DNA of 64,000 nt from Frankia alni (lineage in GTDB: Bacteria; Actinomycetota; Actinomycetes; Frankiales; Frankiaceae), in the NCBI GenBank assembly GCA_026225295.1, contig JAMFSN010000035.1, positions 1-64,000 of the forward strand, read 5' to 3'. The position numbers were made by a program, and so were the translations under genes. The notes under the pieces were generated by a model. The model saw nothing but the letters and a program-made list of their open reading frames with translations, searched no databases and had not been told where the DNA came from. Positions 3,892 to 10,081 of this stretch are shown here, piece by piece (positions within the stretch are counted from its first letter, which is position 1; every line of letters starts with the position of its first letter).

Positions 3892-4716
3892 TCAGACACA
3901 ACTGGTGCTGATCCGCCGGCACAGCTCTCCCTCCAGGTAACGGGCCAGGTCCTGCTGGGGTCGGGTTCCCGTCGTCGCGTCGACGCCCAGGAAACGGACC
4001 GTGTCGGAGCCCAGCGAGGTGAGCTGGGCGGTGGCGAAGCAGCGACGCACGAGACCTTCGGCGAGGGCCGGCGAGGCCTGTTGGCCGTTGACGTTCAGGC
4101 AGTCGGGGCCGTTCGTCATGCCGAGCAGATCGCTCCAGACCAGGACGGTGACCTTGCCCAGGTGCAGACCGGGGGTGGAACGGACGGCCTGGATCTCGTG
4201 GTCGACCCCGGCCAGCACGTCGGTGACGCTGCCGGTCGGGTTCACGTGGACGCTCTGCACGGTGTGCTCGACCTGCGTCGCGAGAGCGCTGCTGGCGTGC
4301 ACGCGGTCCTTGCGCTCGCGGGTCTTGTTGGCCCGGTCGACCTTGAAGACGTTCTGCCCGGTGAAGCAGGGAGAGTAGGTCAGGCCGGAATCCTCGCCGC
4401 CGCTGGCCACCAGCCGCACGTACTCGCCGTCCTGGACGGCGACGTCCAGGTAGGGCCGCAGGGCGGCGGCGACCCGGCCGGCCGAGGCCGCCGAGTTGTC
4501 GTTGACGTCGAGCAGGATCAGCAGCAGCGGATAGGTGGTATCGCTGGTCGAGCCGCCGTCGAGCTGGTAGACGTCGCAGCCCCCGGACGCGGCGTCCGGG
4601 GCGGCGCCGGTCCGGCAGGCCCCGAGCACCGGGACCAGGGCGAGTGCGCCGACGGCGAGCAGCAGCGTCGCGCGGTTGCCGAAACGACGGTGACCGCTGC
4701 GGCGGGCCCGCATCAC
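3892..4716 (-). CDS. secreted lipoprotein, possibly VWA-like
   Basis: 274-residue predicted lipoprotein. After an Arg-rich start there is a hydrophobic stretch ending in the lipobox VLGAC (cleavage before Cys 34). The mature part begins with a beta-strand followed by ILLDVNDNSA, which could be the metal-site strand of a von Willebrand A-like fold, and has several Cys residues that could form disulfides. The family is not securely recognised. The GTG start overlaps the TGA of the upstream OmpA gene (GTGATG; 4 bases), so the two are translationally coupled. ATG 4713 is an alternative start. Confidence 0.75.
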   Translation of the reverse strand: MMRARRSGHRRFGNRATLLLAVGALALVPVLGACRTGAAPDAASGGCDVYQLDGGSTSDTTYPLLLILLDVNDNSAASAGRVAAALRPYLDVAVQDGEYVRLVASGGEDSGLTYSPCFTGQNVFKVDRANKTRERKDRVHASSALATQVEHTVQSVHVNPTGSVTDVLAGVDHEIQAVRSTPGLHLGKVTVLVWSDLLGMTNGPDCLNVNGQQASPALAEGLVRRCFATAQLTSLGSDTVRFLGVDATTGTRPQQDLARYLEGELCRRISTSCV

Positions 4717-5285
4717 GTGGTGCCCTTCAGGACGATCTCGACCCGGCGGGAGCGCGCGTCGGCGAGGTTCTTCTTCGCGCCGGCCTCGCCCTCTCCGCTG
4801 ACGACGATGCGCCGGGCCGAGATTCCCTGCGAGACCAGCCAGGTCTTTACCGACGCGGCCCGGGCCACCGACAGCCGAAGGTTGGTGGCGGCCGATCCCA
4901 GACCGTCGGTAAAGCCGATGACGCTGACCCTCCCGGCGCTGTTGCGGATCGCCGGGAGCACTTTCGACAAGGACGTTCGGGAGTCGGCCCGCAGCGTCGC
5001 GCTGTCGAGATCAAAAAGAAAGTCGGAACTCACGGTGGCCACCCGGTCCCCGTTGCTCATGGTCACAAAGGAACTCAACGGCGGGAGCGGGTTCGGCGCC
5101 ACGCTGGGTAGTCCACGGACGGCGGTCGGAGCCGGCACGAACACCGGACCGCTGCTCGCGCAGGCGGTCGCGAAAATCGCGACCAGTCCCAGTCCGGCCG
5201 TCACAGCCAGGCTCCGCGCGCGCAGAAACGCCCGGCCGCGCCGCGCGGCCGAGATCTTTGTGGCGGAGAGAATTGCCTGATGCAC
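4713..5285 (-). CDS. OmpA/MotB-domain lipoprotein
   Basis: 190-residue lipoprotein with a C-terminal OmpA-like peptidoglycan-binding domain. The N-terminus is basic, then hydrophobic, ending at the lipobox-like FATAC. The OmpA core is seen in SDFLFDLDSATLR, VIGFTDGLGSAATNLRLS and ADARSRRVEIVLK, which keep the Asp and Arg that bind diaminopimelate in known family members. Start GTG 5285 follows GGGGG by 5 bases; the frame is open further upstream to 5453 but without signal. It is the first gene of the envelope cassette and likely tethers it to the wall. Confidence 0.85.
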   Translation of the reverse strand: MHQAILSATKISAARRGRAFLRARSLAVTAGLGLVAIFATACASSGPVFVPAPTAVRGLPSVAPNPLPPLSSFVTMSNGDRVATVSSDFLFDLDSATLRADSRTSLSKVLPAIRNSAGRVSVIGFTDGLGSAATNLRLSVARAASVKTWLVSQGISARRIVVSGEGEAGAKKNLADARSRRVEIVLKGTT

Positions 5286-5466: not shown

Positions 5467-7497
5467 TCAGTTCCGGGGGTTGAGCGGTAGCCAGGCCGAG
5501 ATCACGGTGCCGCCGGTGGCCGGGCTGTCCACGTCGGTGGTGCCGCCGAGGGCCCGCACGCGGTGCGCGATCCCGCTCAGGCCGTGCCCGCGCGGATCGG
5601 CCCCGCCCCGGCCGTCGTCGCTGACCACGATTTCCAGCACGCCGGAGGCCCCGGGCCCGTCCGGGCCGGCGCCCGGTTGGCCGGTGCTCGGTTCGGCGGC
5701 GCCCGGTTCGGCGGCGTCGTGGGCATCGGCGTCCGGGTCTGGCTCGGCGTCGCCATCGGCGTCGCCATCGGCGTCGCCATCGGCGTCGGCGCCGGTGGTG
5801 ACGACGATGGTGACGCGGTGGGCCCGGGCGTGCTTCACCGCGTTGGTGACCGTCTCGGCGATGACGAAGTACGCGGCCCGCTCGATCGGGCTGTCGAACC
5901 GGGCCGCGGGGATGTCGACCTCGATCGCGACGGATCCGCCCGCGCGGTCGGACGGCGGCGCCAGCCGCCCCACCAGGTCGCCGACCGCCGGCGCCAACCC
6001 GGCCTGCCCGAGAACCGGCGGCGCCTGCCCGCGGGCCAGCAGTTGGAGCTCGTAGCGGGTCTCCCGCACCTGACGGAGCGCTTCCCCGATCACCTCGCGG
6101 GCGGCCGGCGCCGCGACGTCGGTGTCGAGATCCCCCAACCGTTCCTCGAGCCCCTCGAGCCGCTGCTGGGTGCCCTCCTCGAGCGCGTGGGCGAAGCGGG
6201 CCTGTTCGGCGTCGACGGCCGTCGTCATCCGCGCCGTCGACCGGGAGACCCCGGCGATCTCGGCGTGCAGTCCGGCCTGCCGGCGCCCGTTCTCCATCGA
6301 GGCGGCCACCGCCCGGGCCGCGGTCTCGACCAGGGGGCGGTTGCGGGCCAGCGCCGGGTCCCCGGTCAGCAGGGCCAGTGTCGTGCCCTCCGCGCCCGCC
6401 ACCGCGTGGACGAACCGGCCGTCGGTGCCGTCCGGAGGGACTCCGGAGGTGCCGTCGGCATCCAGCCATTCGCCGGTCTCCTCGACCTGGTACCACAGCT
6501 GCGCGCTGGGGTCCGACAGCATCGCCCGCAGGGCCGACCGCACCTGCCCGATGTCGGAGGTGGCCCGCAACCGGTCCGCGAGTTCCGCGACCCGGCCGCC
6601 GTCGAGCCGCCGCCGGATCACCACCAGCAGGATGGCGGCCGGCACCCCGAGCAGGATGACCCCTTCGGCGTCGGAGAAGCCGTAGAGCACGCTCTCGGCG
6701 CCGCCGAACATCCAGATCAGACCGGTGACGGCGAAGGCGAGCCCGGCCGCGCCGGTCGCTCCGGCCACCGGGACGGCGTACCGCCGGTCGGGCCCGCTCA
6801 TCCAGATCGGTCGGATCACGAACAACGCACCGAAACCGACCGCGACCGCGGCCGTCCCCGCGTCGTAGAAGGAGGTCGCGGCGTGGAACGCCGTCCGGTC
6901 CGGCCACACCGTCGGCCACGCCTCGCCGGGCGGGAAGCTGTGCCAGGACGGTCGGGAAAAGATCACGATCGGCACGGTCCAGGTCGCGATGAAGACCAGC
7001 AGGGCCAGGATCGCTCGGCCGGCCCGGCCGGAGAACCACGGTCGCGGGAACCGCAGGAGTCCCCACACCCCGACGAGAACCGGGGCCGGCCCGATGAGCG
7101 TCGAGATCAACGGTAAGGGGCCGGTCTGCCATTCGTTGAGCCAGGCGGCCGGCCACAGGATCGCGGCGATCCCGAACGCCACCGCCGTGGCCCGCTGGCC
7201 CGGTTCGTCCCAGACGATGGCGCCGGCGGCCGAGAACGCCAGGGCGACCGCGAGGTTGACCGCGAACAGCAGGGGCTGGCGGGCCGCCAACGGCTCGATG
7301 AACAGCACGGCGAGCCCGCCGGTCACCAGCGTCCACCGGGCGGTCCGGCCGACGACCGCGTCGGCACTGGTCCGGCGGCCGGTCAGCCGGCCCGGTCCGT
7401 CGGTGGGCCGGGCGTCCGCCCGGCCCGACGCCGGGACCGGCCCCCGCGCACCGGGGCCGAGCCGCCGCCCGGCGGCCGGCGGCCGGCGCGGCGACAT
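5467..7497 (-). CDS. histidine-kinase-like membrane protein lacking the phospho-acceptor His
   Basis: 676-residue membrane sensor. Seven or so hydrophobic helices (about residues 50-290) are followed by a GAF-like region, a HisKA_3-like helix and an ATPase domain. The ATPase keeps its N-box (AETVTNAVKHA, Asn 552) and both glycine boxes (SDDGRGG and GHGLSG). The dimerisation helix, normally ELHDGxQQRL, reads ALEEGTQQRL: the acceptor His is Glu 440 (codon 6178-6180) and the next Asp is also Glu. An Asp/Ala/Pro-rich insert splits the ATPase domain between the N- and G1-boxes. Start ATG 7497 has GGAGGGAG upstream. It lies 74 bases after the response regulator of the same locus, so it may supply ATP-dependent kinase activity to a partner. 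Confidence 0.85.
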   Translation of the reverse strand: MSPRRPPAAGRRLGPGARGPVPASGRADARPTDGPGRLTGRRTSADAVVGRTARWTLVTGGLAVLFIEPLAARQPLLFAVNLAVALAFSAAGAIVWDEPGQRATAVAFGIAAILWPAAWLNEWQTGPLPLISTLIGPAPVLVGVWGLLRFPRPWFSGRAGRAILALLVFIATWTVPIVIFSRPSWHSFPPGEAWPTVWPDRTAFHAATSFYDAGTAAVAVGFGALFVIRPIWMSGPDRRYAVPVAGATGAAGLAFAVTGLIWMFGGAESVLYGFSDAEGVILLGVPAAILLVVIRRRLDGGRVAELADRLRATSDIGQVRSALRAMLSDPSAQLWYQVEETGEWLDADGTSGVPPDGTDGRFVHAVAGAEGTTLALLTGDPALARNRPLVETAARAVAASMENGRRQAGLHAEIAGVSRSTARMTTAVDAEQARFAHALEEGTQQRLEGLEERLGDLDTDVAAPAAREVIGEALRQVRETRYELQLLARGQAPPVLGQAGLAPAVGDLVGRLAPPSDRAGGSVAIEVDIPAARFDSPIERAAYFVIAETVTNAVKHARAHRVTIVVTTGADADGDADGDADGDAEPDPDADAHDAAEPGAAEPSTGQPGAGPDGPGASGVLEIVVSDDGRGGADPRGHGLSGIAHRVRALGGTTDVDSPATGGTVISAWLPLNPRN
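5746..5789. repeat. 12-bp tandem repeat inside the kinase ATPase domain
   Basis: Three full copies and one partial copy of GGCGTCGCCATC, in frame, encoding repeated Asp-Ala-Asp-Gly on the minus strand. They form part of the acidic insert between the N-box and the G1-box of the ATPase domain. The 12-base unit changes length without breaking the frame. Confidence 0.9.
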
Positions 7498-7571
7498 ACC
7501 GTCGCTCTCCCTCCGACCGCGGACCAAAGGGGGATCATTTCAGAGCGCGGTACCCGGTCGCGGTCGGCCGG

Positions 7572-8270
7572 TCAGGTGTAATGGATCTTACGTTCGGTCC
7601 CTTCGGTCGGGCCGGCTCCCGGATTGACCCGCAGCCACACGAGGGTGGCCAGGACCCGACGGTTGTCGTCGCCGGACGTCTGCAGGTTGAGTTTGGCGAA
7701 CAGGTTCGCGACGTGGGTCTCGACGGTCTTGGCCGAGAGGTTCATCAGCTGGCCGATGCCCGCGTTGGAGCGGCCCTCGGCCAGATGCCGCAGCGTCTCG
7801 TGCTCGCGGGGGGTCAACGCGCCGAGCTCGGTGTCGCGCCGGCGGGCGGCCAGCAGCCGGCCGACCACGTCGGCGTCCACCACCTGCTCGCCGGCGCTGA
7901 CCCGGCGCAGCGCGTCGCGCAGGATCTCGACGTTGCCGACCCGGTCCTTGAGCAGGTAGCCGACCCCCGGCAGACCGGGGGTGAGCAGGCGGATCGCGTA
8001 GATCGTCTCGACATAGGCCGACAGCACGAGAACCCCGAGGCGGGGGTACCGCTGCTTGAGGTCTTCGGCCGCGACCAGCCCCTCGTCGCGGAAGTCGGGC
8101 GGCATCCGGATGTCGAGGATCACCGCATCGGGCAGGTCGTCGCCGGCCAGCCGGGCGAGCAGTTCGTCGGCGGTGCCGACCGACAGCACGACCTCGAGAC
8201 CGGCCTGGCGCAGCAGCAGCTCGAGGCCTTCGCGGAACAGGGCGCCGTCCTCGGCGATCGCTACACGCAT
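7572..8270 (-). CDS. LuxR/NarL-type response regulator
   Basis: 232-residue two-component response regulator. The receiver has the acidic pair near the start (IAEDGALF), the phospho-acceptor Asp in VILDIRMPP, and the conserved Lys in YLLKDRVGN. The C-terminal LuxR helix-turn-helix reads LTPREHETLRHLAEG and NAGIGQLMNLSAKTVETHVANLF. ATG 8270 overlaps the end of the upstream kinase gene by 10 bases, and there is no strong ribosome site, so translation is probably coupled. It sits between two kinase-like genes and is the expected output of both; its targets are unknown. Confidence 0.93.
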   Translation of the reverse strand: MRVAIAEDGALFREGLELLLRQAGLEVVLSVGTADELLARLAGDDLPDAVILDIRMPPDFRDEGLVAAEDLKQRYPRLGVLVLSAYVETIYAIRLLTPGLPGVGYLLKDRVGNVEILRDALRRVSAGEQVVDADVVGRLLAARRRDTELGALTPREHETLRHLAEGRSNAGIGQLMNLSAKTVETHVANLFAKLNLQTSGDDNRRVLATLVWLRVNPGAGPTEGTERKIHYT

Positions 8271-10081
8271 GGGATCCGCGCCGTCACGACGACCGGGTCG
8301 TCCATTCCGACCGGGGCCGCGCGCGGCGCGGCGCCGCGCGGCGGGGCCGGCTCGAGCGCGCCGTCGAGGGCCCGCAGCCGGTCGTCGACGGCCGACAGCA
8401 GTCCGTCGCCGGCGGCCCGACCGTTGTGCTCGATCTGGAGCCATAGCCCGTTGTCCTGGTGCCAGGACCGGACCGTGCCGCGGGTCGCGCCGGCCCGGTC
8501 GGCGGCGTGGGTGAGGATGTCGATCACGGTCAGGTAAGCCGCCGTCTCCGTCGCTGCGTCGAACCGGTCGCCGGCCACCTCGACCGCGACCGGGATGGGA
8601 AAGTCTTCCATGGCCGCGTCCAACGCCACCGCGAGTCCGGCCTCCCCGAGCACCGCCGGGTAGATCCCGCGGGCCAGGGTCCGCAGCTCGCCGAGCGCGG
8701 CGGTCAGCTCGGCGCTCGCTTCGTCGATGGCGGTGGTCTGCTCGCCGGCGTGGATCCGGGCGATGCCGATCCGGGCCGCGACGGCCAGGAGCCGCTGCTG
8801 GGCCCCGTCGTGCAGATCCTGTTCGAGGCGGCGCCGCTCGGCCAGCGCCGTTTCGACGATCCGGGTCCGGGAGTCGCGCACCGCGGCCAGCCGGTACTGC
8901 AGCACGGCCTGCAGCCGGGCGTTCTCCAGCGCGAACCCGGCGGTGGCGAGAGCCGCGCCGACCAGGTCTTCGTGCCGGCGCAGCGCCCCGTCGGTGACCA
9001 GGAGCGCCACCTCGTCCCCGGTGCCGCTGGTCACCGGGACGAGCAGCCGATCGGCGGCGGTGGGCGGGTGGCGCGGCGTGCCGGCGCCGTCCACGTACAC
9101 CGCGGTGCCGTCCGCGGGCGGGCCGTCCGGGGAATCGGGATTCGGCACCCGGTAGAGCACGGTCATGGTCTCGTCGCCGAGCGCCTCGATCAGCGCGAGC
9201 TGGACCGATTCCACCGTTGGCGGGCTGGCCAGCCGGGCCAGCGTCTCGGCGGCGGCCGCCCGGACCAACTGCCGACGCAGTTCGCCGATGCCGATCGAGA
9301 TCGGCATGCCCAGCAGGGCGACCGCCATCGCCAGGTAGAACGGGTTCGCGCACCGCGCGGCGTGGTGGGAACCCAGGACCGTGGTGAGGAATGCGCAGAT
9401 ACCGGCCGCGGCGAGGGCCAGCCCGGTCGGGCCCTGGACCCGCCGGTCGACCATCGGCAGGCGCCGGAGCCGCTGCCGGAGCAGCACGATGAACGCGCCG
9501 GTCAGACCCAGGGCGGCGGCGGCGGTCAGGACCGTGATCACGTTCGCCGCGTCCCGGTCCGGGAACACCCCGGGCCACCATACGTCGCTGTGGTAGGCCT
9601 TCCACGACGCCCGGGAGGTCAGGATGTTCGCGGTGAGCAGCGCGGGCAGGATCACCAGCACGGCGGCCATGAAGATCCGCTCGGTACGCTCGGTGATCCG
9701 TCCGGTCGGATACTCCAGGACGGCGCCCAGCAGCAGAATCCAGAACACCGGCTGGACCTCGAAGGCCAGCGCCGGGATCGGGCCGACCTCCCAGAAGCCG
9801 GCCCAGGTGGCCGACCAGGCCAGACCCGCGCCGAGCAGCAGGGACGGACCGGTGCCCCGCCGGCCCGGACTGCGCGCGCCGACCCCCGCCGTGGCCGCGT
9901 ACGACATCGTGACCAGGGTGTTCAGCGTGGCCTGGGCCGGGATCGAGCGCAGCGCCGGCCATTGGCACAGGAGCGCCAACGCGCCCGACCCGAGGACCAG
10001 GGCGACCAGCGCGGCCGGTCGTCCGAGCCCGGCGCTGGCCGTCCGGCCCGCGGGTGTGCGCGGGATGACCCGCAGCTCCAC
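8261..10081 (-). CDS. histidine kinase with intact HisKA_3 but degenerate ATPase domain
   Basis: 606-residue membrane sensor related to the other kinase of this locus. Hydrophobic helices fill about residues 15-260, then a GAF-like region and the HisKA_3 helix ERRRLEQDLHDGAQQRL with the acceptor His 424 (codon 8810-8812). The ATPase domain is eroded: the N-box reads VIDILTHAADRAG, with Asn replaced by His 525 and Glu by Asp, and the G1 position reads IEHNGRAAGDG in place of DDGxGG. The G2 glycines are not recognisable. GTG 10081 has AAGGGG 5 bases upstream. It is the first gene of the kinase-regulator-kinase set. Confidence 0.88.
   Translation of the reverse strand: MELRVIPRTPAGRTASAGLGRPAALVALVLGSGALALLCQWPALRSIPAQATLNTLVTMSYAATAGVGARSPGRRGTGPSLLLGAGLAWSATWAGFWEVGPIPALAFEVQPVFWILLLGAVLEYPTGRITERTERIFMAAVLVILPALLTANILTSRASWKAYHSDVWWPGVFPDRDAANVITVLTAAAALGLTGAFIVLLRQRLRRLPMVDRRVQGPTGLALAAAGICAFLTTVLGSHHAARCANPFYLAMAVALLGMPISIGIGELRRQLVRAAAAETLARLASPPTVESVQLALIEALGDETMTVLYRVPNPDSPDGPPADGTAVYVDGAGTPRHPPTAADRLLVPVTSGTGDEVALLVTDGALRRHEDLVGAALATAGFALENARLQAVLQYRLAAVRDSRTRIVETALAERRRLEQDLHDGAQQRLLAVAARIGIARIHAGEQTTAIDEASAELTAALGELRTLARGIYPAVLGEAGLAVALDAAMEDFPIPVAVEVAGDRFDAATETAAYLTVIDILTHAADRAGATRGTVRSWHQDNGLWLQIEHNGRAAGDGLLSAVDDRLRALDGALEPAPPRGAAPRAAPVGMDDPVVVTARIPCV

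Follow-up and report, generated by a model that had tools for sequence, protein, structure and literature searches.

Histidine kinases usually work as homodimers, and few natural examples split between two proteins have been well characterised. In Mycobacterium tuberculosis, two kinase proteins, Rv0601c and Rv0600c, reportedly cooperate with one regulator, TcrA, the domains of another kinase class being carried on separate polypeptides. In this study, we analysed a locus of three genes, P0003, P0002 and P0001, on the minus strand of contig JAMFSN010000035.1 of Frankia alni, in which two membrane sensor kinases with complementary motif losses lie on either side of a NarL-type response regulator (positions are those of the whole 64,000-nt stretch analysed, hereafter the window). 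The FasB-FasC-FasA system of group A Streptococcus likewise consists of two kinase-like proteins and one regulator, with one partner giving the acceptor His and the other the kinase activity (PMC12675982). FasB and FasC heterodimerise, the His coming from FasC, whose own kinase domain is dispensable, and a two-hybrid assay detected the heterodimer but no homodimer (PMC12675982). CheA3 and CheA4 of Rhodobacter sphaeroides, which also resemble the pair proposed here, autophosphorylate only in mixture, acceptor and catalysis being on separate proteins (PMC3591291), and Hik36-Hik43 of Synechocystis, with its one regulator Rre6, is described as a split histidine kinase (PMC7656254).

From the motifs and from analogy with such systems, the window locus probably encodes an obligate split kinase, in which P0001 would phosphorylate P0003 and P0003 would pass the phosphate to P0002. 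Judged from motifs and domain scores, the acceptor and catalytic functions lie on separate, jointly encoded proteins. In an alignment of P0001 and P0003 with 17 orthologous intact kinases, P0001 reads ALEEGTQQRL where the orthologues have DLHDGAQQRL, and its ETVTNAVKHA, DDGRGG and GHGLSG motifs are intact. P0003 has the N-box DILTHAADRA where the 17 orthologues read EALTNTVKHA, and G1 reads HNGRA where they have DDGKG; the position of its His 525 is occupied by Asn in 45 intact homologues. The losses of P0003 thus comprise the N-box Asn (together with a change of Glu to Asp), the Asp and second Gly of G1, and the C-terminal GGGT region; its lid is 4 residues shorter and is directly followed by GDGL (G2). 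A first-pass annotation had described two such kinases around one NarL-type regulator, and its coordinates, strand and reading frames were correct on recheck, as were its numbering of His 525 of P0003 and Glu 440 of P0001 (ALEEGTQQRL) and its assignment of the acceptor His of P0003 (DLHDGAQQRL, residue 424) and of the retained N-box, SDDGRGG and GHGLSG of P0001. It had also held that P0003 lost both G1 and G2, which stands for G1 (HNGRA for DDGxG); loss of G2 was rejected, since the alignment shows GDGL.

The domain scores of the two proteins were reciprocal. Neither reached the curated cut-offs for HisKA_3 (PF07730) and HATPase_c (PF02518) together: P0003 matched HisKA_3 only (32.5 bits, cut-off 24) and P0001 matched HATPase_c only (27.6 bits, cut-off 26.4). 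Against profiles of the dimerisation/acceptor (DHp) and ATPase domains, P0003 scored 88.5 and 47 bits and P0001 41 and 86 bits, the reference being 94 ± 16 and 127 ± 23 bits in 191 intact-like entries. The AlphaFold model of the DHp-ATPase region of P0003 had a predicted local distance difference test (pLDDT) value of 88.9 and matched DesK structures best. The overall template modelling (TM) score against DesK was low (~0.45) and the root-mean-square deviation high, which in our reading may reflect a different placement of the two domains. The modelled DHp-ATPase elements of P0001 follow the same order as those of P0003, so that both proteins are predicted to have DesK-like DHp and ATPase domains, P0003 by a structural search of its model and P0001 by element order. 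The ATPase domain of P0001 contains an insert of ~47 residues, absent from the first-pass annotation and composed of repeated DADGDADG and then a Pro/Ala/Glu-rich part. In the motif table of the census described below, the N-box of P0001 appears as a gap because this insert splits the profile match; the N-box is intact in the alignments.

The losses of the window kinases stand out against their family. A profile of the sensor region (A1) was searched in 35 Frankiaceae genomes, the family to which the window genome belongs, and the loci were then read, entries being counted per locus and not per evolutionary event. The sensor-kinase family was present in 30 of the 35 genomes, and the acceptor His, N-box Asn and G1 Asp were all kept in 55 of 62 lone kinases. 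Of the other seven, four belong to a single lineage that has degenerated in both halves (L182, L183, L187 and L192), and the apparent losses in the remaining three (L195, L210 and L211) proved to be split reading frames and not motif loss. Partial motif loss was confined to two-kinase loci, and every two-kinase locus with unbroken frames retained at least one acceptor His and at least one intact ATPase domain. With lone kinases so largely intact and partial loss found only in two-kinase loci, complementary loss exceeds chance, and motif loss as a general trait of the sensor family was rejected. Each of the four doubly degenerate members has a divergent regulator gene and a further regulator-like frame close by; two of them have an ELDDG acceptor, and all four are likely pseudokinases with another role. 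In the tandems of genus g5, one kinase is intact and the other copy is cut short after its DHp domain; L137 has this arrangement with the frame of the first kinase broken. Among the g5 loci L132-L137, two genomes still have the acceptor His in the truncated copy, and four have Asn, Gly or Glu in its place.

Reciprocal pairs were found at three places in the census: the window, Frankia nepalensis CN7 (G029, census entry L218) and G030 (L139). The DHp/ATPase scores are reciprocal in all three, those of the pair shared by the latter two genomes (hereafter the Frankia pair) being 65/29 with 18/103 bits in G029 and 66/13.5 with 47/97 bits in G030. The sensor-region tree groups the Frankia pair with the g5 tandem kinases (support 100/99) and leaves both window proteins outside this clade, on long branches. 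Approximately unbiased (AU) tests, whose p values are taken with the usual caution given the long branches, rejected a forced grouping of the His-less proteins (p = 0.0033) and of the His-only proteins (p = 3.4e-6), and with them a common origin of the window and Frankia pairs. The acceptor substitutions also differ among the three His-less proteins (Glu, Ala and Leu). The trees indicate that reciprocal pairs arose independently, at least twice. The first-pass annotation had suggested searching other genomes for the same split; the search found the reciprocal pair of G029 and G030, whose origin is separate from that of the window pair, and intact lone orthologues.

Sequence conservation between G029 and G030 suggests that the two halves are in use. 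In the His-only protein, 52% of the DHp domain is conserved vs 38% of the ATPase domain; in the ATPase-only protein the order is reversed, with 30% vs 55%; in intact kinases the values are 66-80% and 61%. This shift of constraint argues more strongly than any other result that the complementary halves are in use and not decaying; the comparison draws on a single orthologous pair of genomes. The ATPase-only protein of G029 has 0 predicted membrane segments, which would suit a catalytic subunit whose partner sits in the membrane.

The orthologous locus of relatives holds a single intact kinase adjoining a regulator 56-61% identical to P0002. Compared with these kinases, P0003 is 59-63% identical in the acceptor domain and 34-37% in the ATPase domain. 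Because orthologous loci hold one intact kinase and the ATPase half of P0003 has diverged more than its acceptor half, the lone intact kinase is most simply taken as ancestral and the split as derived. The first-pass annotation had counted same-locus homologues with both motifs intact against its proposal. Such homologues literally exist in the single-kinase orthologues, but these have no partner and would represent the ancestral state. A search for a close relative of P0001 elsewhere in Frankiaceae found none (best match 35% identity, 200 bits), and in G001 only the kinase and the regulator matched at the locus, with no wider synteny.

The features of the window genes are listed in Table 1. 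P0003, P0002 and P0001 follow one another along the minus strand, co-oriented and closely spaced; the start of P0002 overlaps the end of P0003 by 10 nt, and the ATG of P0001 sits 74 nt past P0002, with GGAGGGAG upstream of it. Third-position GC is 91-94% in the three genes and codon-position GC is like that of real genes; both kinase frames are full length, with intact membrane regions. Each kinase is predicted to have several membrane segments, which come in addition to a linker, a DHp domain and an ATPase domain; we read the linker, judged by position only, as possibly GAF-like. P0002 matches PF00072 and PF00196 above cut-off, as is typical of a NarL-type response regulator, and retains the phospho-Asp 53 within VILDIRMPP. 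An OmpA-domain gene lies directly downstream of P0001; it is possible that it is co-transcribed with P0001 or is a target.

Table 1. Features of the window locus and reciprocal kinase pairs in other Frankia genomes.
Feature	Position	Strand	Basis or description
P0003	8261-10081	minus	His-only membrane sensor kinase with GTG start; intact HisKA_3 dimerisation/acceptor domain, degenerate ATPase domain
P0002	7572-8270	minus	NarL-type response regulator: receiver and LuxR/GerE DNA-binding domains
P0001	5467-7497	minus	Membrane sensor kinase, ATPase-only; Glu 440 replaces acceptor His, HATPase_c motifs intact
Acceptor His 424 of P0003, DLHDGAQQRL	8810-8812	minus	Sequence
Degenerate N-box of P0003, DILTHAADRA (Asn replaced by His 525)	8492-8521	minus	Sequence, alignment
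Degenerate G1 of P0003, HNGRA instead of DDGxG	8414-8428	minus	Sequence, alignment
Surviving G2 of P0003, GDGL	8399-8410	minus	Sequence, alignment
Glu 440 at the acceptor position of P0001, ALEEGTQQRL	6178-6180	minus	Sequence
Intact N-box of P0001, ETVTNAVKHA	5827-5856	minus	Sequence
Acidic low-complexity insert in the P0001 ATPase domain, predicted disordered loop between two strands	5644-5784	minus	Alignment, structure model
Intact G1 of P0001, DDGRG	5605-5619	minus	Sequence
Intact G2 of P0001, GHGL	5578-5589	minus	Sequence
OmpA-domain protein	4713-5282	minus	
His-only and His-less/ATPase-intact kinase pair beside NarL-type regulator	L065 6665-8527 and 8434-9699		Frankia nepalensis CN7 (G029)
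His-only and His-less/ATPase-intact kinase pair beside NarL-type regulator	L139 4749-6830 and 6728-8680		G030

Considering the above results, we propose a plausible model for the window locus. An ordinary kinase-regulator pair would have been the starting point, whose kinase gene may have become two copies or been joined by a recruited related copy; the two copies would then have lost opposite halves of the catalytic cycle. P0001 and P0003 would heterodimerise through their DHp helices, P0001 would bind ATP and phosphorylate His 424 of P0003, and P0003 would hand the phosphate to Asp 53 of P0002. Activation would depend on the presence of both proteins, which might integrate two input signals. 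This direction of phosphate flow is proposed by analogy with FasB/FasC, CheA3/CheA4 and mixed dimers of EnvZ, in which complementary mutants, one without ATP binding and one without the His, phosphorylate (PMC4734776). The obligate split pair of the first-pass annotation is still inferred, now as the best-supported reading in view of the intact lone orthologues, the recurrence and the constraint shift; its remark that such a pair is mere inference overlooks the precedents of CheA3/CheA4, FasBC and Hik36-Hik43. More tentatively, and with somewhat less than even confidence, we suggest that tandems of this Frankiaceae sensor-kinase family repeatedly become obligate heterodimers, one copy losing the acceptor His and the other the ATP site, giving two-input sensors that fire only with both proteins.

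Several points weigh against the split-kinase model. A sister relation of P0001 and P0003 was neither shown nor rejected (p = 0.38), and the ATPase score of P0001 is lower than the average (86 vs 127 bits), in part because of the insert. The window pair is carried by one genome only, and therefore selection on its own losses cannot be shown. At locus L138 of G030 an intact kinase stands with a His-less kinase, so a His-less copy alone does not imply an obligate partner. The heterodimer reaction also presupposes phosphorylation in trans, and kinases of this family may act in cis or in trans.

An unlikely alternative that nevertheless deserves attention gives P0001 the role of a modulator or dedicated phosphatase, which would bind nucleotide and either dephosphorylate P0002 or lock the state of P0003 as RetS does that of GacS, with another intact HisKA_3 kinase of the genome phosphorylating P0003. 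The EEGTQQ of P0001 retains the Gln at the HisKA_3 phosphatase position, and for the phosphatase activity of HisKA_3 kinases this Gln matters and the His does not (PMC7005713). The genome holds at least 12 other HisKA_3 kinases, modulation within heterodimers is known from RetS/GacS and ChrS/HrrS (PMC9491836), and a His to Glu change in DesK served to crystallise a phosphotransfer-like state (PDB 3gif, 3gie; PMC7005713). However, a phosphatase or modulator role leaves unexplained why P0001, despite the decay of its DHp domain, keeps the full set of ATP-binding motifs; the Frankia pair is strongly constrained in the ATPase half, and the phosphatase Gln is absent from the ATPase-only protein of G030 (ERDLATGLAS). 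It is less probable still that the locus is simply decaying, with random losses in both copies after duplication and a coincidental complementarity. Fully degenerate family members do exist (L182, L183, L187 and L192) and both window proteins are long-branched, but the full-length frames, normal codon-position GC, intact membrane regions and tight spacing speak against decay, as does reciprocal loss that evolved twice and persists across two Frankia genomes with reversed constraint. Finally, paralogous HisKA_3 systems are known to cross-talk (ChrSA/HrrSA, PMC9491836), but it is very improbable that P0001 phosphorylates the acceptor of some other kinase, with P0003 as a shared phosphotransfer protein and adjacency as a relic of duplication, given that both genes adjoin one regulator, that P0003 and P0002 overlap and that the two losses are recurrently coupled in one locus.

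The loci around 79 related regulators of other genomes were compared, and the Frankia pair remained the sole clear reciprocal pair; in tandem kinases of other actinobacteria (L240-L244) both copies were intact. A 60-genome class sample and a second family were also searched, and a plasmid search gave no match. Partial pairs outside Frankiaceae (L101, L105, L107, L108 and L250/L260) were considered and rejected, as no clear reciprocal pair emerged. At L101, L105, L107 and L108 (Actinophytocola, Actinokineospora and Saccharopolyspora), short proteins with an LHDG or LHHG acceptor and a degenerate ATPase region adjoin a NarL-type regulator, and nearby lie an intact kinase and a longer protein in which both halves are degenerate. 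A literature search on tandem kinases in Frankia returned nothing relevant by title.

A lineage in which intact ancestors exist alongside reciprocal pairs and half-degraded intermediates, where an intact kinase is accompanied by a His-less one or by one that stops after the acceptor domain, would allow the evolution of an obligate heterodimer after duplication to be followed. One could also ask whether splitting the kinase brings in an additional input or makes switching sharper, as has been predicted for split kinases (PMC3591291). If tandems of this family do repeatedly become obligate heterodimers, nature would have run the classical kinase-dimer complementation test more than once.

Among known systems, AbrC1/AbrC2/AbrC3 of Streptomyces coelicolor resembles the window locus in that two kinases and one regulator are encoded together (PMC4428217). 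Systems of this type are not a split, and in the HisKA_3 tandem pairs sampled outside Frankiaceae both kinases retain every motif, whereas the window locus does not hold two catalytically complete kinases. RetS/GacS and the proposed heterodimer of the ChrS pseudokinase with HrrS have in common one impaired or inhibitory partner (PMC9491836, PMC12189002); they differ from the window pair in that the active partner is complete. CheA3 and CheA4 are chemotaxis kinases held in a cluster that have lost whole domains, while P0001 and P0003 are nearly full-length membrane sensors with losses at the level of residues. The gene content of the window locus and the degenerate ATPase domain of P0003 would fit a FasBCA-like three-component system in which one partner has a dispensable kinase domain, but FasBCA has a ComE-type regulator, its loss is one-sided because a candidate His persists in FasB, and the system is not HisKA_3/NarL (PMC12675982). 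Split kinases are thus already known; what the sequences add here is a real and recurrent reciprocal loss after duplication in a NarL-class sensor kinase.

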